From Oscillospiraceae bacterium (GTDB taxonomy: Bacteria; Bacillota; Clostridia; Oscillospirales; CAG-272), in NCBI GenBank assembly GCA_015064415.1, contig SVSG01000022.1, forward strand, positions 1 through 35,373: a DNA stretch of 35,373 bases, read 5' to 3'. The position numbers and the translations under genes were made by a program. Below the pieces are notes generated by a model, which searched no databases, was not told the origin of the DNA, and saw only the letters and a list, made by a program, of their open reading frames with translations. Of this stretch, positions 1 to 35,373 are shown piece after piece. Within the stretch, counting starts at the first letter, position 1. Each line of letters begins with the position of its first letter.

Positions 1-110
1 GTTGGCCTTCCCCAAGGAGGGGAAGTTGCCCTCGCTTCGCGAGCGCGTCGACACAACGCTCGGCGTTGGTCGCGGGGGACCGCGACAGCGGTGGATGAGG
101 ATGTCGGCAC
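1..110. repeat. Composite palindromic repeat with nested module
   Basis: A hairpin (CTTCCCC..GGGGAAG, about 8-25) is followed by a second part GGGACCGCGACAGCGGTGG and GATGAGGATGTCGGC up to about 109. A similar copy without the middle part ends the window (about 35318-35373). The extra block at about 26-74 resembles, in reverse orientation, a module found at five other places here. No gene is seen in 1-457; the open frames are repeat-derived. Confidence 0.75.
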
Positions 111-5885: not shown

Positions 5886-8069
5886 TTACTTACCGTTGTC
5901 TTTGTTTTCTTTTTCGTCGGCATCGGGGTCGGCAAAGAAGGATGCCACAGCATTCTTCAGCGCCGCAATGGCCGCCGTCAGCTGCACGTTTTCCAGTCGT
6001 GCGCCTGCAGAGTCGAAGCGGCCGCCGCCGCCCATCTTCTCCATGATCTTCTGCACGTTGATCGAACCGTCCGAGCGGCCCGAGATGTGGACCACACCGT
6101 CCACGACCACCAGCGCAAAGGAGGCGCCGACACCGCGCACGGCAAGCAGGCGGTCTGCCTCCTTGGCGGCGGCGATACGGTCGGCCGTGCCGCGCCCCGT
6201 GCCCTCGCTCCAGGTGATGCCCACGCTATCACCCTGCATCAGCACGCAGTCCGCGAAGCTGTGCTCGCACAGATAATCCTCATAGCTCTGGTTGAAGAAG
6301 GTGTTCACGCGCTCCGCGTTCGCGCCCTTGCCGTACAGATAGCGCGCCGCGTCCAGCGTACGCGTACCCGTGTTGCGGGCAAAGCGGTCGGTATCCAGCA
6401 TGATACCCGACAGCATCACGCTGGCCACCTCGTCGTTGATCAACTGGTGAATATCGTTTTCCGAGCCGGTCTCGCTTTGCTCCAGCATCTCGCTGACCAG
6501 CTCACAGGTGGAGGAGGCACTGCCGTCGATATAGTTGATGACGGGCTCGAAATCGTACTCGCCCGATTGCAGATGGTGGTCGATGATGGCGATCTTGCCC
6601 GACACCTCCTGCACGTTCTTGGCAAGGGCCGCGTCCTCTACGTTATTGAAGTTGTTGACGTCCACCACCAGAAGCAGGGTGCCGGGGCGCACCAGATCCA
6701 TGCCCTTATGCGCGGACACGAACATGTCGGCATATACGGGAGAGGAGGCCAGACGCCGCGTGGCGATGCGGAAATTGGTGTTGGAAAGGTTGGAGATGAT
6801 CTTGGTGGGCACGCCCGCGAAAAGGCCGAACTGCGCCATGCCGACGGCGGCACCGATGCAGTCGAAATCGGGGCCGGAGTGGCCCATGATCAGGACGTTG
6901 TCCGCCTCGGAAATTTTGGAAAGCAGGAAGTTGGCCACCACGCGCGACTGCACCTTGGTGCGGCGGCGGAAGGGGGGCGTGTCACCGCCGTGATAGCGGA
7001 TGCCGTCCAGACGTCGCACAGCCACCTGGTCACCGCCGCGCTGCAGCGCCATGTCCAGGGCGTTCTCCGCCTCCAGCGCGCGCTCGGCCATCGTGCCGTT
7101 GGAAAGCGCAATGCCCACCGACAGCGTGACGGGGATGCTGTACTCACCAAGTCGGATGTCACGCACGCGACCCAGCAGGTCGCGGAATTTGTTTTCCTCG
7201 CACTCTGCCAGCTTTTCCTGCGAGAAAAGCAGGATGTAACGGTCGCGTTCGTACTCGCGCAAAAAACCGTTCACGGAGGCGGCAAAGTGGATCAGAATAT
7301 CGTCCACGCGGCGGGAAATGTCACGGTAGCTGGTGCGGGTGTACTGCGTCAGCTCCTCCAGGTTGTCCACGTCGATGTAGGCAACCACGGGCATTTCGCG
7401 CTCGGTCTTTTCCTTCAGATCAAGCAGCTCGGTGGCGTCGTTGAACACGACCATGAAGTTCTGGCGGTCGTTCAGCTCGATCTCGTAGGTGCGCACCGCG
7501 TAGCGGCCGCAGTCCTGCAGCTGTACGACCTTACTGCTTTTGGTCAGGCGGAAATCCGCCTCGGGCGGGGCCTGCGTCGGCTTTTCCGCGTCCGCCTTGA
7601 TCGCGGCCATGGAAAGATGTGTGGGCGCCTTATAGCGCTCTGCCTCGCGGATCTCCTTCAGCGTCACGCCGCCGCAAAGCTCGGACACGTTGCCGTGGAA
7701 GAAGGGGTCCTTGGCGCCGATCAGGTTCTGCAGTGCCTCGTTCATCACGCGCACGCGCCCCTCACCGTCCGTGATGGCATAAGGAAGCGGAATGCTGTAC
7801 TTGAACAGATTGTGCATCTTGTCATTGAGGGTCTGGTGCATGACGCGCTCGTTGCGTCGCATGTGCTGCCTGATCAGATACAGCGCGTAAACAAGTGCCG
7901 CAAACAGGGCGTAGGCAAGCAGGAAGATCCACGACATGACCTCGGGGGCGTCGGGATAAAAGCGCTCCATCACAAGATACGCGCCGAAGAACAGCACACC
8001 AAGCAAAATGGTGACAAGAAGCGGCATGCCGTAGTCAGACCGATAAGAATGTTCGTTTCGCTTTTGCAT
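5886..8069 (-). CDS. gdpP: Cyclic-di-AMP phosphodiesterase GdpP
   Basis: GdpP hydrolyses c-di-AMP to pApA and so controls potassium and osmotic homeostasis and cell-wall stress. The 727-residue product has two membrane helices (about 14-34 and 46-67), a PAS-like region (about 85-215), a degenerate GGDEF domain (about 225-360, with GGDQ where the catalytic GGDEF would be), then DHH and DHHA1 domains. Metal-site residues visible are H397, D401 and D403 in GHSGPDFD, D470, and D497-H498-H499. The start is ATG at 8069 with AAAGGAG 8 nt upstream; a TTG seven codons earlier overlaps that site and was rejected. The C-terminal [11 protein letters not shown] fits DHHA1. Confidence 0.95.
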
Positions 8070-16907: not shown

Positions 16908-16939
16908 ATGGGGGAGCTTTTTGCAAAAAGCTCCCCCAT
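16908..16939 (+). terminator. Hairpin of the GGGGGA..TCCCCC family
   Basis: A perfect stem ATGGGGGAGCTTTT/AAAAGCTCCCCCAT starts 12 nt after the stop codon of the Cys-tail gene, with the family tail CCCCTCAAAAATCTTC behind it. It probably terminates that gene. The rest of 16940-17145 holds a copy of the AACGGTATGAG motif and no gene. Confidence 0.6.
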
Positions 16940-20229: not shown

Positions 20230-20261
20230 GCGGGGGAACTTTTTGCAAAAAGCTCCCCCGC
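20230..20261 (-). terminator. Hairpin of the GGGGGA..TCCCCC family after trmN6
   Basis: GCGGGGGAACTTTTT and AAAAAGCTCCCCCGC pair with one mismatch. It is 9 nt behind the trmN6 stop codon on the minus strand and has AAAGGTTTTTGAGGGGGT on its far side, the family tail in inverted orientation. Confidence 0.6.
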
Positions 20262-20270
20262 ATCAACCCC

Positions 20271-21026
20271 CTACTCTATATACCCCGTATCGTAAACGCG
20301 CTGTGCGCGGGGGGTGAGCGGAGCGCCGTTTTGCGCGCTTTCCCGCAAAACAAGCGTGGGCATCAACGCGAGCCCCTCCTTGCCGCCAAGGCGTGCCTCG
20401 CACAGCACCATCGAGGGCGCTTTTTCGGGCGCGTCCTGCACGAAAAGCATCCGTTTTGGCGCAAATTTCGCCATACGTAGTGCCGAAAACAGTGTTTCCA
20501 GACGATCGGGGCGGTACACAAGATACAGCGTGCCGCCATAGCGCAAAACGCGCGCGGCGGCGGCGGTAAAGTCGCCAAGATCGCCCAAAATCTCGTGTCT
20601 TGCGATCTGTTTTTCCTCGTACGCGCAGGCAAAGCCACTTTCCGCGCGCATGTAGGGGGGATTGGTGAAGATCACATCCAATTCCCCTTCGAAATCAGCC
20701 GCCTTCAACTCCCTCACGTCGCGATTTAGTACCGAAACGGTATGAGAAAACCCATTTAATTCCACGTTTCGCGCGCTCAGCGCGGCAAAGCTCTCCTGCG
20801 CCTCCACGGCATAGATCTTCGCATAGCGTTCTCTTGCCGCCAAGAGCAGCGAGATCACCCCCGTGCCGCATCCGAGGTCGGCGGCACGCGCCCCCTTCGC
20901 GGGGCGGCAAAAGCAGGACAAAAGGTACGCGTCGGTGCCAAACGTGAGCCCGTTTTCGCGTTGTATGAGGCGCACGCGATCGTTGATCTCGTCCACGCGC
21001 TCGCCTTCCTGTAACAGAATATCCAT
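20271..21026 (-). CDS. trmN6: tRNA1(Val) A37 N6-methyltransferase TrmN6-like (YabB)
   Basis: The 251-residue protein is a class I SAM methyltransferase with motif I DLGCGTG (50-56) and the N6-adenine motif NPPY (122-125). The start ERVDEINDRVRLIQRENGLTFGTDAYLL is characteristic of the YabB/TrmN6 group, which methylates A37 of tRNA-Val in E. coli. In Bacillus the homologue yabB lies between ricT/yabA and rsmI, and here it is also near rsmI. The ATG at 21026 has a full AAGGAGGTG. The recurrent motif AACGGTATGAG falls inside the coding sequence, at codons for SHTVS. Confidence 0.88.
   Translation of the reverse strand: MDILLQEGERVDEINDRVRLIQRENGLTFGTDAYLLSCFCRPAKGARAADLGCGTGVISLLLAARERYAKIYAVEAQESFAALSARNVELNGFSHTVSVLNRDVRELKAADFEGELDVIFTNPPYMRAESGFACAYEEKQIARHEILGDLGDFTAAAARVLRYGGTLYLVYRPDRLETLFSALRMAKFAPKRMLFVQDAPEKAPSMVLCEARLGGKEGLALMPTLVLRESAQNGAPLTPRAQRVYDTGYIE
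20734..20750 (+). repeat. AACGGTATGAG motif inside trmN6
   Basis: GAAACGGTATGAGAAAA is on the strand opposite to trmN6. It is the only copy located within a gene, so it may be a chance match or a real site tolerated there. Confidence 0.5.
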
Positions 21027-21060
21027 TTGGCACCTCCTTGTTGGGATTTATGTTTTTTTT

Positions 21061-21096
21061 GCGGGGGAAACTTTTTGATAAAAAGCTTTTCCCCGC
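21061..21096. repeat. GGGGGA..TCCCCC hairpin before trmN6
   Basis: GCGGGGGAAACTTTTT and AAAAAGCTTTTCCCCGC pair nearly completely, with the tail ACCCCTTTCAAAAATCC. It lies just upstream of the trmN6 ribosome site, so it is not a terminator for trmN6. Confidence 0.6.
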
Positions 21097-21167
21097 ACCC
21101 CTTTCAAAAATCCTTTGATCAAAAACAGATTTATGCACAGCCGCATTGTCGGCGGAAATTTTACAGA

Positions 21168-21198
21168 AAAACAGAGGATGTAAACATCCTCTGTTTTA
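21168..21198 (-). terminator. Terminator downstream of the glycosidase-like gene
   Basis: AAAACAGAGGATG and CATCCTCTGTTTT form a 13-bp stem with TTTTTCTG following on the minus strand. It is the first plain terminator after the gene at 21406-23244. Confidence 0.65.
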
Positions 21199-21275
21199 GT
21201 TTATCATAATTCCCCTTTTTTGTCAAGGTGAGCTCTACCCGTCTGCGCACTTTGTATGCGCTTTCCTTAAAAGCG

Positions 21276-21396
21276 TTAAAAGGTTTTGGGTGGGGGTGCG
21301 GGGGAGGCCTTCGCGGTTGCCGAAGGCATACCGACGTGCTCGTATCACGCTTCGCGTGAGCGAGGACAGTTGTCTAAAAGGTCTCCCCCGCCCATT
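21276..21396. repeat. GGGGGA..TCCCCC hairpin carrying a nested module
   Basis: The outer arms GCGGGGGAGGCCTT (about 21299) and AAAAGGTCTCCCCCGC (to about 21393) belong to the common hairpin family. The loop is replaced by a block (about 21312-21374) containing CCGACGTGCTCG, an inner hairpin CACGCTTCGCGTG and GCGAGGACA. The same block is found in five other places. It lies just after the stop codon of the glycosidase-like gene. Confidence 0.7.
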
Positions 21397-21405
21397 CCTC
21401 CATCC

Positions 21406-23244
21406 TCACTCGTACTTGCAGCTGTCCAGCATCATCCAGATAAGACGCCCCATGCCGCTGGCATTGGGCATCCAGGGTGCGAACCACGGATCGTTGTCCG
21501 CGATACGCTCGCTGACGTAGCATTCCTTCGACACGGTGGTGGCAAGCAGGGTGTCCAGGATCTGTTTCGCCTTATCGTGCATACCCAGACGGCGGAAGCC
21601 GTGGTAAAATCCGAGCTCGGGCGCGGTGGTGTACCAGATGTGCGTGTTGCCGTCCGGGTACGGCATATGACCGTACAAGCCGTGCCCCGAGAGGATCCCC
21701 TCCGCCTCCATGCATCTCAGCATACGGGGCAGATCCTCGTCGGGGATGGTTTCCGACCAAAGCGCCGCGCCGTGGCCGAGGTAGGGGTAAAACTCCTCGT
21801 AAAGCATAGCGGTATCGTCACCAATGGGCATCACGGGCAAATGCACCGCATCCTTGCCCTTTTGCGCCTCGGTCGCCCTCAGATAGGCCTCCAGAAGCGT
21901 CTTGCGGTAGCTTTCGTGCTCTGCCTGCACCTTGGCCGCACGCGTATCGCCAAAATGCGCGCACGCTTCGGCAAAGCGCTTCATCGCCAGCACGTTCCAG
22001 CGGTCGGTGTTCCAGTTCTGAAAGACCTGCGGCCAGTCCGAGCCGCGCATCGGCGGGAAGAGGCCATCGATACAGCCCTCCTCACCACGGCATTCAAAGC
22101 GCGTTTCGCAGATCCAGTCATAGGCGGCAAACGCCTTTTCCACGTACTTATCCCACAGCTCGCGGTCGTCCGCGTTCAGGCACACGGCGGCAAAGCTGAG
22201 CAGACCGCAGGCGGTGTCCTGCGCCCAGACCTCGCCAAAGGTGCAGATGCGGCCGTTTTCGTGTTGCATCTGATCGAAATAGGTCGCGATCGCGCCGCGA
22301 TAGAACTCGGCAAAGTCACCAAGCTGAGAAATGCTCTCCAGCACGGGGTACTGATCCCACAGCCACACGTAGCGCTGGAGCGCGCCCTGGCGCGGCACGA
22401 GGAAATCCTTGTCTACGTAGTGCGCGTAGCACTGCATGATCTGCACGGCAAAATTTTGCAAAAGTCGGAATTTCTCGGGGTCGTTTTGCAGCTTGGCGGG
22501 CAAGCGCAAACGCTGCAGCTGGGTCTGCCAGTATGCCTCGACCTTCTTTTTCTCGGCCTCGTAATCAAAATCCACGGGCGCATATTCGCCCTTGCCAAAC
22601 GAGAGATAAAGCGTGTAGCTCTCGCCGCTTTCCAGCCACTCGCGCGTCCAGACGGTGCCGTCCGCGTCGCTGTAATCCCAGTTCACCGAGGTCTGAATGC
22701 CCACAAAAGTCATACCGTCCCGCAGGATATTGCGGCAACGGATGAAGGTGTTGGGGGTGTAACGGAACTCCGCGACCTCGGGGTAATAGGAGCAATAGCC
22801 GTCGGGCGCGCCGTAAACGAGCTTGCGCTCCTTGCCCGAGCGAATCACAAGACCGAAGCGCTCACGGGCGCGGTAAGGGGCGCGGTTGGTGATCGTCACC
22901 TTCACAAAGCAGGTGGCCTTGCGCTCGGTGTTGCAGAACGCCTCAATGTCCATTTCAAGGCCGCCGAAGGTCGCCACCACGCCGTGGACGGGGGTGCCGT
23001 CCGCGGGGGTGCGGAGCTTCGCGTTTTTGAAATCGAACACGCGCGCGTGGCGGGTGTGCACGGGCCAGATGCCGCTGCAGGGGATGTTATCGTTGATGAT
23101 GAGCGTATCGGTGTCGCGGGGATACTGATTTTCGCCCATGATGATCTTGCCCTCGGGCCAGATGGTGAAAAGTCGCTCGGACTTCGGGGGGTGGAGATAG
23201 CGCTTGTTGGTGTTGACGCGCTGCCAGGTGGTGGTATCGTACAT
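21406..23244 (-). CDS. Six-hairpin glycosidase-like protein
   Basis: The 612-residue product looks like a cytoplasmic two-domain glycoside hydrolase: a beta-rich N-terminal domain (about 1-240), then an alpha/alpha-barrel-like part (about 260-600) rich in Trp, Tyr, Asp and Glu (ALQRYVWLWDQYPVLESISQ, GEVWAQDTACGLLSF, HIWYTTAPELGFYHGF). No signal peptide is visible. The GH family, substrate and catalytic pair cannot be assigned from sequence alone; candidate acids are in WDQYPVLE and GEVWAQD. The ATG has AAGGAGG. It interrupts the ricT-trmN6 synteny and may be a later insertion. Confidence 0.65.
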   Translation of the reverse strand: MYDTTTWQRVNTNKRYLHPPKSERLFTIWPEGKIIMGENQYPRDTDTLIINDNIPCSGIWPVHTRHARVFDFKNAKLRTPADGTPVHGVVATFGGLEMDIEAFCNTERKATCFVKVTITNRAPYRARERFGLVIRSGKERKLVYGAPDGYCSYYPEVAEFRYTPNTFIRCRNILRDGMTFVGIQTSVNWDYSDADGTVWTREWLESGESYTLYLSFGKGEYAPVDFDYEAEKKKVEAYWQTQLQRLRLPAKLQNDPEKFRLLQNFAVQIMQCYAHYVDKDFLVPRQGALQRYVWLWDQYPVLESISQLGDFAEFYRGAIATYFDQMQHENGRICTFGEVWAQDTACGLLSFAAVCLNADDRELWDKYVEKAFAAYDWICETRFECRGEEGCIDGLFPPMRGSDWPQVFQNWNTDRWNVLAMKRFAEACAHFGDTRAAKVQAEHESYRKTLLEAYLRATEAQKGKDAVHLPVMPIGDDTAMLYEEFYPYLGHGAALWSETIPDEDLPRMLRCMEAEGILSGHGLYGHMPYPDGNTHIWYTTAPELGFYHGFRRLGMHDKAKQILDTLLATTVSKECYVSERIADNDPWFAPWMPNASGMGRLIWMMLDSCKYE

Positions 23245-23262
23245 AGTCGGCCTCCTTGTGTT

Positions 23263-23317
23263 GCCACAAACGTGGCGGGATTATCCCCATTTTATCACGC
23301 GCGCGCCCCACACGCAA
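23263..23317 (-). promoter_or_regulatory. Candidate promoter and operator of the glycosidase gene
   Basis: On the minus strand a weak promoter TTGCGT (23312-23317), 17 nt, TAAAAT (23289-23294) is followed by the palindrome GCCACAAACGTGGC (23263-23276) just before the ribosome site. The palindrome could be an operator or an mRNA hairpin. The evidence is only moderate. Confidence 0.4.
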
Positions 23318-23399
23318 GGGATTTTGCGAAAATGAGTGTAATTTTGTCCCCTTTGTGGAAAAGTTGGCACAGTTTTGTGAAGAAAAACGGCCGCAAATT

Positions 23400-23520
23400 G
23401 TGCGTTGCGGATGGCGGGCGAACACTGTTCGCCCCTACGGGTTTGTGTGCAGACGTTTATGCATCGCGGATGGCGGGAGGAGGATATCCTCCCCTACGGG
23501 TTTGTGCGAAGCCGTGTTGT
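23400..23520. repeat. Two tandem GCGGATGGCGGG..CCCCTACGGGTTTGTG modules
   Basis: Both units have GCGGATGGCGGG, a palindrome, then CCCCTACGGGTTTGTG. The palindromes differ: GGCGAACACTGTTCGCC in the first, GGAGGATATCCTCC in the second. No gene is present in 23245-23859; this stretch is repeats throughout. Confidence 0.65.
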
Positions 23521-23521
23521 A

Positions 23522-23672
23522 CATCGGGGATACTACTCACCCACCAACTACGTTGGTCCCCCCTCCCTCACAAGGGAGGGACTCCTAAAGCTTTCGCTTT
23601 TATCAACAGACGGTGATTTTGCATTGTTTTTGTTTGAAATTTCATCAAACATCCCGTCCGTTGTTGAAGGCG
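23522..23672 (+). repeat. Direct repeat, left copy
   Basis: A 151-bp block, nearly identical to 24817-24969; the only difference seen is two extra T in a T-run of the second copy. It contains a small hairpin CCAACTACGTTGG, the palindrome CCCTCCCTCACAAGGGAGGG, and the inverted pair ATCAACAGACGG..CCGTCCGTTGTTGA shared with the element at 190-402. Confidence 0.85.
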
Positions 23673-23679
23673 AGAATTA

Positions 23680-23800
23680 CAGCAATCCCTCCCCAATGAA
23701 GGCTGTCCTCGCCCACGCTAAGCGTGATGCGAGCACGTCGACACTCCGCTACGCGTCGGTCGCGGGAGGGTGGCACCCGCAGGGTGACGGGTGAGGATGC
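23680..23800. repeat. Composite repeat with nested module
   Basis: CCCTCCCCAATGAAGG (about 23686-23701) and GGGAGGGTGGCACCCGC with GGGTGACGGGTGAGG (about 23764-23796) look like the two parts of the repeat at the window ends. They are separated by a block (about 23704-23764) with TGTCCTCGC, an inner hairpin, GCGAGCACGTCGACAC and GGTCGCG, which is the nested module in reverse orientation. Confidence 0.65.
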
Positions 23801-23828
23801 CCCACTCGAAAATCTACTTATAAGCAAG

Positions 23829-23852
23829 AAACACCGCCCGTGGGCGGTGTTT
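23829..23852 (-). terminator. Terminator of the AT-rich island operon
   Basis: AAACACCGCC and GGCGGTGTTT pair around a short loop, 7 nt after the stop codon at 23860 on the minus strand. Confidence 0.75.
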
Positions 23853-23859
23853 TCTTAAC

Positions 23860-24153
23860 TTACTTGTTCTTGTAATCATTAATTGCATCTTGATATTTAT
23901 CATATTGACCATTGCCGTAATTGTTGTGGTACCACTCTTTTTCTTCGTCTGTCAAATCATCCCAACGATTACTACTTCCACCGCTACCGGAACTAATCTC
24001 CACACCCAAAAAAGCAATAAACAAAACAAGCGCTAATATTCCAACAACGAGCGTGATTATCTTCTCTTTTTTAGTAGAAAATTTCATGGTCGTTATCAAA
24101 TACCAAAAGCAACAAACCGAAACTATCAAACATAAACTCGCCAAAAATATCAT
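23860..24153 (-). CDS. Small two-helix membrane protein of the AT-rich island
   Basis: This 97-residue protein has two hydrophobic segments (about 2-20 and 32-51) and then a hydrophilic part with GSGGSSNRWDDLTDEEKEW and a short acidic/Tyr-rich end. The WDDLTDEEKEW stretch resembles a helix seen in small Clostridia proteins near the membrane, but I cannot name a family. It starts 15 nt after the gene at 24169, with AAGGGG before its ATG, so the two form an operon. The codon choice is AT-rich, unlike its neighbours. Function unknown. Confidence 0.7.
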   Translation of the reverse strand: MIFLASLCLIVSVCCFWYLITTMKFSTKKEKIITLVVGILALVLFIAFLGVEISSGSGGSSNRWDDLTDEEKEWYHNNYGNGQYDKYQDAINDYKNK

Positions 24154-24168
24154 AACTTATCCCCTTCC

Positions 24169-24384
24169 TTAATTCACCTTTTTCAAGCACAGTGTTTTGG
24201 CTTGCACTTCAACAATATATCCATATTTCTTTGCCATTTTCGCCAACGCTGACTTGTTTTTAAGATAATAATCACTTTTGGGCAATGTACTACCGGTGCT
24301 TTTTTCATATTGCTTCTCGGTTAACGAAAATTCCTCATTTGCCTCCAGTAAAGAAATGATTTTTTCAAAATTAGGCTTCTTCAT
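24169..24384 (-). CDS. Small basic protein of the AT-rich island
   Basis: This 71-residue protein is Lys-rich (MKKPNFEKIISLLEANEEFS, then TEKQYEKSTGSTLPKSDYYL and KNKSALAKMAKKYGYIVEV). It looks helical with a short C-terminal strand region, and may bind nucleic acid or a protein partner. I do not recognise a family. The ATG at 24384 has GAGGTGAG at a good spacing; a GTG three codons earlier overlaps that site and was rejected. It is divergent from the XRE regulator, with paired palindromes between them, which suggests it is under that regulator's control. Confidence 0.7.
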   Translation of the reverse strand: MKKPNFEKIISLLEANEEFSLTEKQYEKSTGSTLPKSDYYLKNKSALAKMAKKYGYIVEVQAKTLCLKKVN

Positions 24385-24403
24385 AGCTCTCACCTCTTAT
24401 ATC

Positions 24404-24480
24404 TAATGTATACATTATATACTGCAAAAGTCTATTTGCCAAGAGGTTTTCGATATATAATTTTTACATAATATAATGTA
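24404..24480. promoter_or_regulatory. Divergent promoter with paired palindromes
   Basis: The minus-strand promoter TTGGCA (24437-24442), 17 nt, TATAAT (24414-24419) overlaps the perfect palindrome TAATGTATACATTA (24404-24417). On the plus strand a TATAAT (24472-24477) for the XRE gene lies inside TACATAATATAATGTA (24465-24480). Both palindromes share TACAT/ATGTA halves, which suggests two binding sites of one regulator, most simply the XRE protein itself. The plus-strand -35 is weak. Confidence 0.6.
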
Positions 24481-24491
24481 GAGGTGATATA

Positions 24492-24695
24492 ATGAAGCTT
24501 CGCATCTTGGAAATTCTCGAACAAAAGGGCAAAACGAAATACTGGCTTTATATTCAACTGGGGCTCAGCTATCAGAATTTCAACAAAATGGTCAACAACC
24601 AAACAAACGGCATCAAATTTGAGAATATGCAAGCGCTTTGCGATATTCTGGAATGCACCCCAAACGATCTGTTTGAGGAATATCACGAAAAATAA
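24492..24695 (+). CDS. XRE/Cro-CI family helix-turn-helix regulator
   Basis: This 67-residue protein is a single HTH domain: KLRILEILEQKGKTKYWLY, the recognition region GLSYQNFNKMVNNQ, and the typical end LCDILECTPNDLFEEY. Such mini-regulators are common in phages and mobile islands and usually repress their own divergent promoter. The ATG has AGAGGTGAT. A strong terminator follows. DNA around it is AT-rich compared with the rest of the window. Confidence 0.88.
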   Translation: MKLRILEILEQKGKTKYWLYIQLGLSYQNFNKMVNNQTNGIKFENMQALCDILECTPNDLFEEYHEK

Positions 24696-24715
24696 AAAAG
24701 CCCCCAAACGGGGCG

Positions 24716-24750
24716 AAAAAACCGAGAGGATCATGACCTCTCGGTTTTTT
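24716..24750 (+). terminator. Intrinsic terminator of the XRE gene
   Basis: AAAAACCGAGAGG and CCTCTCGGTTTTTT form a 13-bp stem with a T-run, 20 nt after the stop codon. Confidence 0.85.
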
Positions 24751-24816
24751 GTATGATGGGTTTGTGCGCGACTTGTAGGGGGGCTTGCTCCCGCCGTTTG
24801 TACGCCGCCGTTTGCG

Positions 24817-24969
24817 CATCGGGGATACTACTCACCCACCAACTACGTTGGTCCCCCCTCCCTCACAAGGGAGGGACTCCTAAAGCTTTCGCTTTTATCA
24901 ACAGACGGTGATTTTGCATTGTTTTTTTGTTTGAAATTTCATCAAACATCCCGTCCGTTGTTGAAGGCG
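24817..24969 (+). repeat. Direct repeat, right copy
   Basis: A 153-bp block in the same orientation as 23522-23672, 1144 bp apart. Together they bracket the AT-rich island and its bordering repeat. Recombination between them would delete the island. Between 24696 and 26008 no gene other than the ferredoxin terminator region is seen. Confidence 0.85.
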
Positions 24970-25010
24970 GGCCATTCGTGAATGGCCCCTACGGGTTTGT
25001 GCGCTGTTTT
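24965..25010. repeat. Single CCCCTACGGGTTTGTGCG module
   Basis: GGGCCATTCGTGAATGGCCC, a perfect palindrome, is directly followed by CTACGGGTTTGTGCG. It abuts the right direct repeat. Confidence 0.55.
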
Positions 25011-25040
25011 CAAAAAACAAAAAGTTTTCTCTTTTTTGCG

Positions 25041-25252
25041 TCATCCTGAACGAGCGAACAAACGCGAGCCGAAGGATCTCGACCGCGCAAAGCAAGCGCG
25101 GGCGCGGTGTGTATGTGCCGAACACCTGCACAAATATTACTTTACGTGCATGGAACTGCAACGCTCTCACTTAGATCCCGCAACGGCTTCGCCTTGCGGT
25201 TTGCTCGTTTGCTTCGCTGCACCTCGCAAACTTCGACTGCGCTCAGGATGAC
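25041..25252. repeat. GTCATCCTGA inverted-repeat element
   Basis: The left end GTCATCCTGAACGAGCG and GCCGAAGGATCTCG and the right end CGCTCAGGATGACA (inverted) mark a roughly 210-bp element with a further inner hairpin (CCGCAACGGCTTCGCCTTGCGG-like, about 25178-25200). Such elements are common in gut Clostridia genomes, from general knowledge. No coding role. Confidence 0.6.
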
Positions 25253-25261
25253 ACGGACGGA

Positions 25262-25510
25262 GGAGTGTATCGTGGATGCGGGCGACCATCCACCTCGCTT
25301 TGCGAGCTAGGTCGCCCCTACGGGTTTGTGCGATTACCCACAAAACGGTGCGGCGTTCCGCGAACATTGTAGGGGGCGACGTCCTCGTAAGGAGCGTAGC
25401 GACGGAATAGCGAAGCCGTAGGCAAGCGTCCGCCCCGAAAAACATCGCGGATGCGGGCTGTCGGGGCGCCAGCCCCTACAAGGTTTGTGCGCAGTCGGTT
25501 TGCGCGTTTA
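25262..25510. repeat. GGATGCGGG..CCCCTACGGG modules, some with nested hairpins
   Basis: One unit has GGGCGACC..GGTCGCCCC with an inner CTCGCTTTGCGAG hairpin (25279-25330). A second has GTAGGGGGCGACG..CGTCCGCCCC around a further block (about 25371-25438). A third has GGGCTG..CAGCCCC (25451-25500). All end with TACGGGTTTGTGCG-like sequence. Confidence 0.6.
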
Positions 25511-25602
25511 CCCCCTAAACGGGGCGAGTTTTCGCGCATATCACGGCTGTTCACCATGTCCCTTTGATCAAAAGGCTTTTCCGCCCTCGCCTCGCGGCGG
25601 GG

Positions 25603-25638
25603 GCATGGGGGAAACTTTACAAAAAGTTTTCCCCTAAT
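25603..25638. repeat. GGGGGA..TCCCC hairpin
   Basis: ATGGGGGAAACTTT and AAAGTTTTCCCC pair around a short A-rich loop. It belongs to the common family but is not close to a gene end. Confidence 0.55.
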
Positions 25639-25659
25639 GCGTCCCCGCAAGCAGCGCGG

Positions 25660-25808
25660 CTATATCAGGCTCCCTCCGGGAGGGAGCTGTCAGCAAAGCT
25701 GACTGAGGGAGCACGCGTGCCCGATATGGCAATAGCTAAGTTTATTGTTACGCAGGCGCCTTCCACCGCAAGCGATCTCCCTCTCGGAGGGAGGCACCGG
25801 GCAAGTGC
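25660..25808. repeat. GGCTCCCTCCGGGAGGGAGC element
   Basis: The left part has GGCTCCCTCCGGGAGGGAGC, an inner hairpin GTCAGCAAAGCTGAC, then TGAGGGAGCACGCGT. The right part has CTCCCTCTCGGAGGGAGGC after AAGCGAT. The arms face each other, as in the element at 29124-29231, but the centre (about 25715-25765) is longer. No gene. Confidence 0.55.
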
Positions 25809-25844
25809 AAACAATGCGGCTGCTGTATTTCCTTTTTATGGAAG

Positions 25845-25940
25845 GGTTTTGAAGGGGTCATAGGGGGAAACTTTCCGCGACCACCGAAGGTGTGTCGACG
25901 TGCTCGCCTGCGGCGAGGACAGCAAAAGTTCCCCCTAACG
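25845..25940. repeat. GGGGGA..TCCCCC hairpin carrying a nested module
   Basis: The outer arms AGGGGGAAACTTT (about 25862) and AAAAGTTCCCCCT (about 25923-25936) belong to the common family. The inner block (about 25876-25922) has CGCGACC, TGTGTCGACGTGCTCGC and GCGAGGACA. Its organisation is the same as at 21276-21396. Confidence 0.7.
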
Positions 25941-25967
25941 CATCCTCCACGCGCCTCCCGTGCAAAC

Positions 25968-26000
25968 AAAAAACGGCGCGGTAAACCGCGCCGTTTTTTT
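25968..26000 (-). terminator. Terminator of the ferredoxin gene
   Basis: AAAAAACGGCGCGG and CCGCGCCGTTTTTT form a 14-bp stem with a TAAA loop, 8 nt after the ferredoxin stop. On the minus strand a T-run follows, so it is a good intrinsic terminator. Confidence 0.85.
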
Positions 26001-26008
26001 GATGTAAA

Positions 26009-26179
26009 TCAGGCCTCCTGGGGAGCGCCAACAGGGCAAGCGCCTGCGCATGCACCGCAGTCGATGCAAACGTCAGCGTCAATCACGAACTTATCGCCGT
26101 TCTCGCTGATAGCGCCCACGGGGCACTCGCCAGCACATGCACCGCAGCCGATGCACTCGTCGGTAATCTTGTATGCCAT
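26009..26179 (-). CDS. 2[4Fe-4S] ferredoxin
   Basis: This 56-residue clostridial-type ferredoxin, too short for simple ORF lists, has two cluster motifs: CIGCGACAGECP (9-20) and CIDCGACAGACP (38-49). It carries electrons for fermentative enzymes such as pyruvate:ferredoxin oxidoreductase or hydrogenase. The ATG at 26179 has GGAGG at 9 nt; the stop is TGA. An extended -10 (TGTGCTACAAT, about 26214-26224) lies upstream on the minus strand. It stands alone between ricT and the repeats. Anaerobic lifestyle is implied. Confidence 0.93.
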   Translation of the reverse strand: MAYKITDECIGCGACAGECPVGAISENGDKFVIDADVCIDCGACAGACPVGAPQEA

Positions 26180-29267: not shown

Positions 29268-29690
29268 AACACGGCACCCGCGAACATTGTAGGGACCGGC
29301 CTCCCGGACGGTCCGAAAAACCCCCGCAAATATGGTAGGGGCGGACAGCCGAGGACTTGTGACCGCGAAGCGTGTCACGTGCTCGCCGCAAGGCGAGGAC
29401 AACGGTCCCTACGGGTTTGTGCGCAGCCGTTTTATGCGTCGGGGATGCGGGACGCCGAGGATGTCGTCCCCTACAGGTTTGTGCGTTTCCCCGCCGAACG
29501 GTGCGGCGTTTCGCATACATTGTAGGGGGCGACCTCCGGACGCCCCGTTTGTGTGTTTTACTGCCAAACGGTGCGACATCCCACGAACATTGTAGAGACA
29601 GGACCGTCGGGGACTTGAGACCGCGAAGCGTGTCACGTGCTCGCCGCAAGGCGAGGACAACCGCCCTACAGGTTTGTGCGGTTACCCACC
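29268..29690. repeat. Dense field of GTAGGG/CCCTAC modules with two nested modules
   Basis: Units with CGAACATTGTAGGG, a variable centre, then CCCTACGGGTTTGTGCG repeat about five times. Two of them hold the identical block GACCGCGAAGCGTGTCACGT plus GCTCGCCGCAAGGCGAGGAC (29361-29403 and 29619-29661), which is the nested module in its shortest form. No gene in this stretch. Confidence 0.65.
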
Positions 29691-35263: not shown

Positions 35264-35373
35264 AAACAAGAAACCACCCGCTATGCGGGTGGGCAACAGA
35301 GGTTATACCTTGAAAAAGGCCTTCCCCAAGCGGGGGAAGGGGGACCGCGATAGCGGTGGATGAGGATGTCGGC
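35264..35373. repeat. Composite repeat matching the window start, without nested module
   Basis: A hairpin CCACCCGC..GCGGGTGG (about 35275-35292) is followed by GGCCTTCCCCAAGCGGGGGAAGG, cut here as GGCCTTCCCC and AAGCGGGGGAAGG, and GGGACCGCGATAGCGGTGG plus GATGAGGATGTCGGC. This is the same repeat as at 1-110, in the same orientation and without the extra block. Confidence 0.75.

Follow-up and report, generated by a model that had tools for sequence, protein, structure and literature searches.

At the two ends of the contig studied here stands the same repeat, interrupted at one end by 49 nucleotides that it lacks at the other. The question raised by this locus is whether the interrupting segment is a mobile unit in its own right and, if so, by what it is moved. 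The contig (SVSG01000022.1, Oscillospiraceae bacterium) was analysed over its whole length of 35,373 nucleotides, called the window below, and is contig 21 of a draft genome, G000, of 2,246,943 bases in 43 contigs and 81.3% completeness. A preliminary description, made from the letters of the window, had listed six such blocks and had interpreted them as copies of a very small, mobile and palindromic unit for which no transposase was in sight. All six blocks were recovered, with closely agreeing coordinates in our covariance model R1 (Table 1). The repeat devoid of the insert at the window end is likewise present and is the same repeat that copy A occupies at the window start, and no transposase is found within the window. 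Read on the minus strand, the empty host is CGCGGTCCCC/CTTCCCCCGC, and the occupied one consists of CGCGGTCCCC, 49 nt and CTTCCCCTCC; a second empty copy of the A-type host lies at G000:C9:21272.

Table 1. Module copies, module-free hosts, occupied and empty pairs, and RAYT-like genes. A slash marks the junction of two flanks; positions given as plain numbers are those of the window.
Feature	Position	Strand	Size and host	Remarks
Module copy A	26..74	-	49 nt	R1 match 25-74, 54 bits; last model position is flank
Module copy B	21312..21369	+	58 nt, GGGGGAGGCCTTTTGTC..-type palindrome	R1 61.2 bits
Module copy C	23703..23764	-	62 nt, CCCTCCCC..GGGGAGGG composite repeat	R1 56.1 bits
Module copy D	25876..25922	+	47 nt, apex of GGGGGAAACTTT..AAAGTTCCCCC palindrome	R1 67.2 bits; two-hairpin fold
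Module copy E	29358..29402	+	45 nt, GTAG-tagged REP	R1; CCTAC ends 10 nt downstream
Module copy F	29616..29660	+	45 nt, GTAG-tagged REP	R1; CCTAC ends 9 nt downstream
Empty host repeat for copy A	about 35318..35352	+		2-3 mismatches/26 vs joined flanks of A-type copies
Module-free GTAG REP	29289..29315	+		2 mismatches/26 vs host of copy G000:C13:39393
Module-free palindrome GGGGGAACTTTTTGCAAAAAGCTCCCCC	20232..20259	+		Host type of copies G000:C28:22004 and C35:11859
Module-free palindrome, host type of GGGGGAACTTTTTGCAAAAAGCTCCCCC	16910..16937	+		Repeat family D7
Pair GGGACCGGCCTCC/CGGACGGTCCGCG, G000	occupied C13:39393; empty C10:47951			
Pair CGGGAGCAAGCCC/CCGCCCTACGGGT, G000	occupied C10:11967, C41:13672; empty C10:14153, C28:22330			
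Pair CGGCACCAAGGCA/CCGCCCTACGGGT, G000	occupied C35:14062; empty C13:39093			
RAYT-like gene L236	G000:C10:50853-51377	-		RAYT profile
RAYT-like gene L251	G000:C41:62029-62529	-		RAYT profile
RAYT fragment	G000:C2			RAYT profile

R1 was built from 13 module copies, and its search of G000 gave 45 matches at E ≤ 0.1, including the six window copies; 13 of the 45 match by construction because they seeded the model. The cores of the 45 copies measure 40-62 nt, those of the window copies 45-62 nt, and the shortest cores belong to weak or truncated copies. The pattern ACGTGCTCGCN{3,22}GCGAGGACA is matched 24 times in G000, versus 0 times by its reversed control, and has no match in any of 294 other genomes from the same order. 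The family is thus more than a chance similarity of GC-rich hairpins, a doubt that the preliminary description had itself raised.

Among 59 relatives, R1 matched 11 genomes at E ≤ 0.01, all of them in the window's genus (21 genomes including G000), and none of the 38 relatives outside it. The module is therefore present in 10 of the 20 other genus genomes, in some weakly (best E values 0.0076 in G296, 9e-4 in G308 and 1.5e-4 in G302). Of 196 genomes sampled from the family, three match at E ≤ 1e-4, all of them again in the window's genus, one of the 71 genera sampled. In unrelated high-GC genomes (257 billion bases scanned for the exact motif), single matches occurred among those listed, and R1, run on 100 of the 109 listed loci, scored up to 38.6 bits; because such a score is reached in unrelated genomes, single matches of 26-38 bits prove little, and the single weak matches found there were treated as chance rather than as family members. 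These scores, the GC-richness of the repeats, and the location of copy A and its empty partner at contig ends are what could be said for a chance likeness of GC-rich hairpins or an assembly artefact. We consider either extremely unlikely in view of the pattern counts given above, the position of most copies inside contigs and the recurrence of the family in 10 other genomes of the genus.

The module was found to be composed of two adjacent imperfect hairpins, P1 and P2, in place of the one small inner hairpin proposed earlier. The layout of the unit is 5'-CGCG, hairpin P1, A-C, G-T, mismatch G, CTCGC, loop, GCGAG, mismatch G, A-C, A-R-3'. The stem of P1 is variable but co-varying (sub-types CGAC/GTCG, CGGT/ACCG, CGCTT/AAGCG and GTGAC/GTCAC) and carries a bulged base, which is T in 41 of the 56 rows having a letter there. 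P2 is near-invariant, with a G/G mismatch and the module end GAGGACAR; in the 66 distinct rows that a model-fitted alignment of 87 matches comprises, the two Gs of the mismatch are kept in 63 and 59, and the foot is nearly constant.

Pairing in P1 was examined in two alignments. In a free alignment of the 13 copies, 95.9% of P1 cells pair, and double changes appear in 6 of 15 pairs (shuffle mean 3.4, reached in 1/500) and in 25 cells (shuffle mean 7.2, 0/500), while further pair types, 11 against 11.6 in shuffles, are not in excess. In the model-fitted alignment there are 126 double-change cells, versus 34.8 in shuffles (0/500), with a covariation score of 0.352, versus 0.157 (0/500), and sliding the P1 partners abolishes the signal. 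Such co-variation, together with good RNA folds (two adjacent hairpins in each of five copies, z -2.1 to -4.8), would suit a transcribed structural RNA cassette residing in 3' regions, scattered by recombination and co-varying for the sake of its RNA function. Several copies, however, fold equally well as DNA, both hairpins forming in three of the same five copies and P2 alone in two, and besides selection, template-directed (quasi-palindrome) correction may be a source of hairpin co-variation in DNA. A search against Rfam, carried out for the window, gave 15 matches at E up to 1, none of them over a module copy. The precise module-free hosts described below and the narrow range within one genus are also unlike a housekeeping RNA, and we regard the RNA cassette as very improbable.

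Evidence of movement was sought in module-free versions of the hosts. For this, 13 + 13 nt around each of the 45 copies in G000 were joined and looked for in 122,493 distinct bases of this genome (the contigs listed and two RAYT loci). Over 26 nt, 4 of 45 joined flanks were matched exactly and 10 of 45 when up to two mismatches were allowed, whereas only 2 of 87 flanks with swapped right sides reached the latter level. Both of these stem from one pair, where the swap gives a chimeric copy, C28:15729, its own REP's right flank back. Shifting the right boundary lowered the matches to 3/45 (-1), 2/45 (+1) and 1/45 (+2), and to 0/45 for other shifts of up to 6 nt. No target duplication was seen at the matching sites, with one C ambiguous in GC-rich hosts. 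As an illustration, the REP types CGGGAGCAAGCCC/CCGCCCTACGGGT and CGGCACCAAGGCA/CCGCCCTACGGGT are represented in the whole genome by six empty copies beside four occupied ones, and an identical 59-nt core is found in both hosts, both of which occur in the empty state as well. The sites lacking the module are paralogous and lie in the same genome, and the pairs are what a unit with fixed ends would leave on clean insertion, or on clean loss. The exact and near-exact hosts bear out the earlier view of a very small mobile palindromic unit, and we hold with high confidence that the module is mobile, although the clean pairs could also represent precise deletions.

An orthologous comparison was possible at the gap between a ferredoxin and a methyltransferase gene (window 21026-26017), which in G000 is about 5 kb long and holds copies B, C and D. 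It also contains a glycosidase-like gene and many repeats; a direct repeat of 115 bp with 98% identity is located at 23517-23631 and 24812-24926 of the window, 1295 bp apart. The gap is short in 18 readable relatives, and at this one orthologous gap R1 found the module in 0 of 20 relatives. Since the host palindromes are missing from the 18 readable gaps too, the relatives record absence of the module rather than a precise empty site.

Insertion targets were surveyed at 72 sites of the genus, with tandem arrays left out. In 25 of them CCTAC follows within 16 nt of the module 3' end, at a distance of 9 nt (13 sites), 10 nt (10), 8 nt (1) or 11 nt (1); G000 contributes twelve of these sites, and five other genomes the remaining 13. 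On the left side, GTAGG within 22 nt was observed at 2/72 sites. From this imbalance it follows that in GTAG REPs the module has a single orientation and lies immediately beyond the basal stem. Palindromes of other types also serve as hosts, among them GGGGAACTTTTTG/CAAAAAGTTCCCC, an empty copy of which (C28:30231) is itself bounded by GTAG and CTAC, and the module is also found in or beside AT-rich palindromes that share no sequence with REP stems. Joined flanks fold clearly (z < -2, mononucleotide shuffles) at 17 of 46 non-redundant sites, out of 70, so that a location at the hairpin apex holds for part of the sites only. In general, no strong target word was detected beyond C at -1 (29/46) and +1 (28/46 non-redundant sites).

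Some copies have multiplied together with their surroundings. Copy A lies inside a composite repeat, and a module core identical to its own is present at six places in the genome; composite repeats have spread with the module inside, in six A-type copies that share their flanks and in four C-type copies. The chimeric copy (C28:15729-15788) has the left flank of one REP and the right flank of the C-type composite repeat and, to judge from these flanks, shows probable recombination between module copies. It could accordingly be argued that the module does not transpose by itself and rides passively in GTAG REPs and composites copied by RAYT enzymes, switching hosts by recombination or template switching. 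The recurrence of one core within long shared flanks and the mixed flanks of the chimera both agree with this; the fixed register in REPs could descend from one ancestral insertion, and the word CGAGGAC is common to module and REP. Recombination from copy to copy, however, creates no empty site, hosts of different types are found in an exact module-free form, and the AT-rich palindromes are hosts with no sequence in common with REP stems. Passive spread therefore appears possible but rather unlikely.

Candidate enzymes were searched for in the same genomes, as the preliminary description had proposed for G000, with a divided outcome: two RAYT-like genes and a fragment were found in G000, and Pfam Y1_Tnp has no match there. 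The weight of this missing match is weak because the draft is 81.3% complete. Elsewhere in the genus, Y1_Tnp matches 10 of 21 genomes, strongly in G304, G305, G295, G236 and G307, and through its weak hits we arrived at a family of RAYT-like proteins about 170-240 aa long. In G306, G311, G303 and G312 the gene of this family is located between a radical-SAM/DUF512-type gene and der (names read from translations), and at L226:1-1842 (G311:C22) the upstream DUF512-type gene reads through into the RAYT frame, and the two could be taken for a single fused protein. A RAYT profile built from five sequences finds 15 of the 21 genus genomes and matches the solved E. coli TnpA_REP (4er8) with E=9.4e-9.

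Association of these genes with the module is loose. Among the 25 RAYT loci searched, no module was found at a distance of up to about 1.5 kb from an intact gene; one of the 25, L253, has module matches and is a RAYT interrupted by a module array. In G236:C49, G306:C17 and G311:C22, copies lie about 1.5-2 kb from a RAYT gene, and the REPs inside both G000 RAYT genes are of the plain GTAG type, devoid of the module. Because the RAYT loci are not flanked by the module, we have downgraded the notion that it is the REP of a RAYT. At the level of genomes, module and RAYT occur together in 10, the module alone in 1, RAYT alone in 5 and neither in 5 (Fisher p=0.063, kinship uncorrected).

Two further features of these loci were observed. 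Head-to-tail module arrays with a period of about 48-50 nt are present in G305:C58 (L212:3200-3460 and 6850-7200) and G311:C22 (L195:1-125), starting and ending inside the unit. In G305:C58 the RAYT frame (L212:1261-1659, minus strand) is broken by a three-unit module array, at the position that the upstream internal REP takes in other RAYT genes. RAYT genes carry an in-frame inverted pair of GTAG REPs, one before and one after the HUH codons, at similar distances from these. We examined 51 RAYT frames (22 of the genus and 29 of other genera of the order, best-scoring loci only; L229-L251 and L279-L307), including two pairs of identical or nearly identical genes and a few CCTAC strings that are not obviously REPs: GTAGG lies upstream of the HUH codons at about -96 to -156 nt in 47/51, CCTAC downstream at about +35 to +73 in 47/51, and both flanks are present in 45/51. 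An inverted match of at least 12 nt, up to 29, was detected in 42/51, and the REP sequences differ widely between genes. REPs overlapping the ends of RAYT genes are described by Di Nocera et al. (PMC3733652). An internal REP pair around the HUH codons was not found mentioned in the portions of the literature available to us, which does not prove that no description exists, and the arrangement is possibly undescribed.

Comparison with known systems places the module near two of them. IS200/IS605 elements have a fixed target tetranucleotide 5' of the insertion, and their miniature derivatives have subterminal hairpins, no terminal inverted repeats and no target duplication, the last three being features of the module as well. 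The P1 bulged base, four pairs above the foot, may resemble that of the IS608 hairpin. A derivative of this type, whose canonical TnpA is now missing from the draft genome, would also be in keeping with the strong Y1_Tnp matches in the genus. Against it stand the left flank, in which no constant tetranucleotide is found, the lack of Y1_Tnp matches in G000, two genomes (G304 and G307) with the enzyme but no module, and the failure to find any longer parent element with module ends. Taken together, we judge this origin improbable. Two other classes were considered and rejected. Insertions of IS110 type share a core dinucleotide, and the last two bases of the module, AA or AG, are not repeated at its left flank; a DDE-type MITE does not agree with ends, CGCG and GACAR, that are non-complementary, or with the lack of target duplication.

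Like the REPs and REPINs of TnpA_REP (RAYT), the module is a short, extragenic, non-coding, multi-copy imperfect hairpin element with a conserved irregularity (here the P2 G/G mismatch and the P1 bulge) and a conserved unpaired foot, in a genome that has RAYT genes (on G000:C10 and C41). It differs from them in carrying no GTAG tag, its foot being ACGTG..GACAR and GTAG belonging to the host repeat; in having two dissimilar hairpins and no inverted REP pair; and in its location, inside GTAG REPs and not beside a RAYT gene. CGTC-tagged REPs (PMC3733652) are likewise a palindromic family with no dedicated transposase. On the reverse strand the module has YTGTC before the P2 stem, and TGTC is a frequent CGTC variant according to the same source, while GAC/GTC is also predicted to be paired. 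Unlike those REPs (8-9 bp stem starting with AT pairs, CCA tail), P2 starts with C-G/T-A and no CCA is present; the module furthermore has the second hairpin P1, is inserted in hairpins and is confined to one genus here. A fixed entry point in REPs is shared with the REP-targeting insertion sequences ISPsy8, ISPpu9/10 and ISRm22, which encode a transposase, with a 3-base direct repeat in ISPsy8 (PMC1525189), whereas the module is 45-62 nt long, non-coding and free of duplication. In general, the module works like a REP-type or an IS200/IS605-type non-autonomous element, yet fails a tested feature of each.

The explanation we put forward is that the module, 5'-CGCG..P1..A C-GTG-CTCGC(loop)GCGAG-GACAR-3' and about 45-62 nt long, is a mobile DNA that is not autonomous. 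It would insert precisely and with no target duplication into other palindromic repeats, at their apex or where stem and loop meet. Its hosts would most often be GTAG-tagged REPs or GTAG..CTAC palindromes related to them, entered in fixed orientation at about 9-10 nt from the tag end. The unit would move as folded single-stranded DNA, and its mover may be a HUH-type tyrosine transposase of the TnpA_REP (RAYT) kind encoded by the genome, which would read the P2 foot ACGTG..GACAR as REP enzymes read the GTAG tag. RAYT action is suggested by the ssDNA-hairpin anatomy, the clean insertion and the tie to GTAG REPs. The E. coli TnpA_REP depends on an irregular zone in the hairpin and on a foot motif that is conserved (PMC8266576). 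We give a HUH/RAYT enzyme as the moving agent an even chance of being right, and regard the explanation as a whole, non-autonomous mobile DNA inserting into hairpins by such an enzyme, as evenly poised.

A narrower version, which we advance tentatively and consider somewhat doubtful, is that of a REP hyperparasite: a two-hairpin module targeting the apex of a folded single-stranded hairpin, with orientation and register fixed by the GTAG tag of the host REP, would be moved by the very TnpA_REP enzymes that maintain its host REPs. The mechanisms of REP dissemination are described as poorly understood in PMC8266576, and the portions of the literature on REP spread available to us contained no REP insertion with a clean before and after. 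G000 brings together clean occupied and empty pairs, a fixed host register, a co-varying stem and candidate enzymes, and because it offers these pairs, this register and these enzymes, insertion of a folded ssDNA into another hairpin by TnpA_REP is directly testable. If the hyperparasite version is true, two nested levels of parasitic repeats would depend on one domesticated transposase. The module, if the explanation holds, would be a very small natural mobile DNA and part of a simple two-level parasite system.
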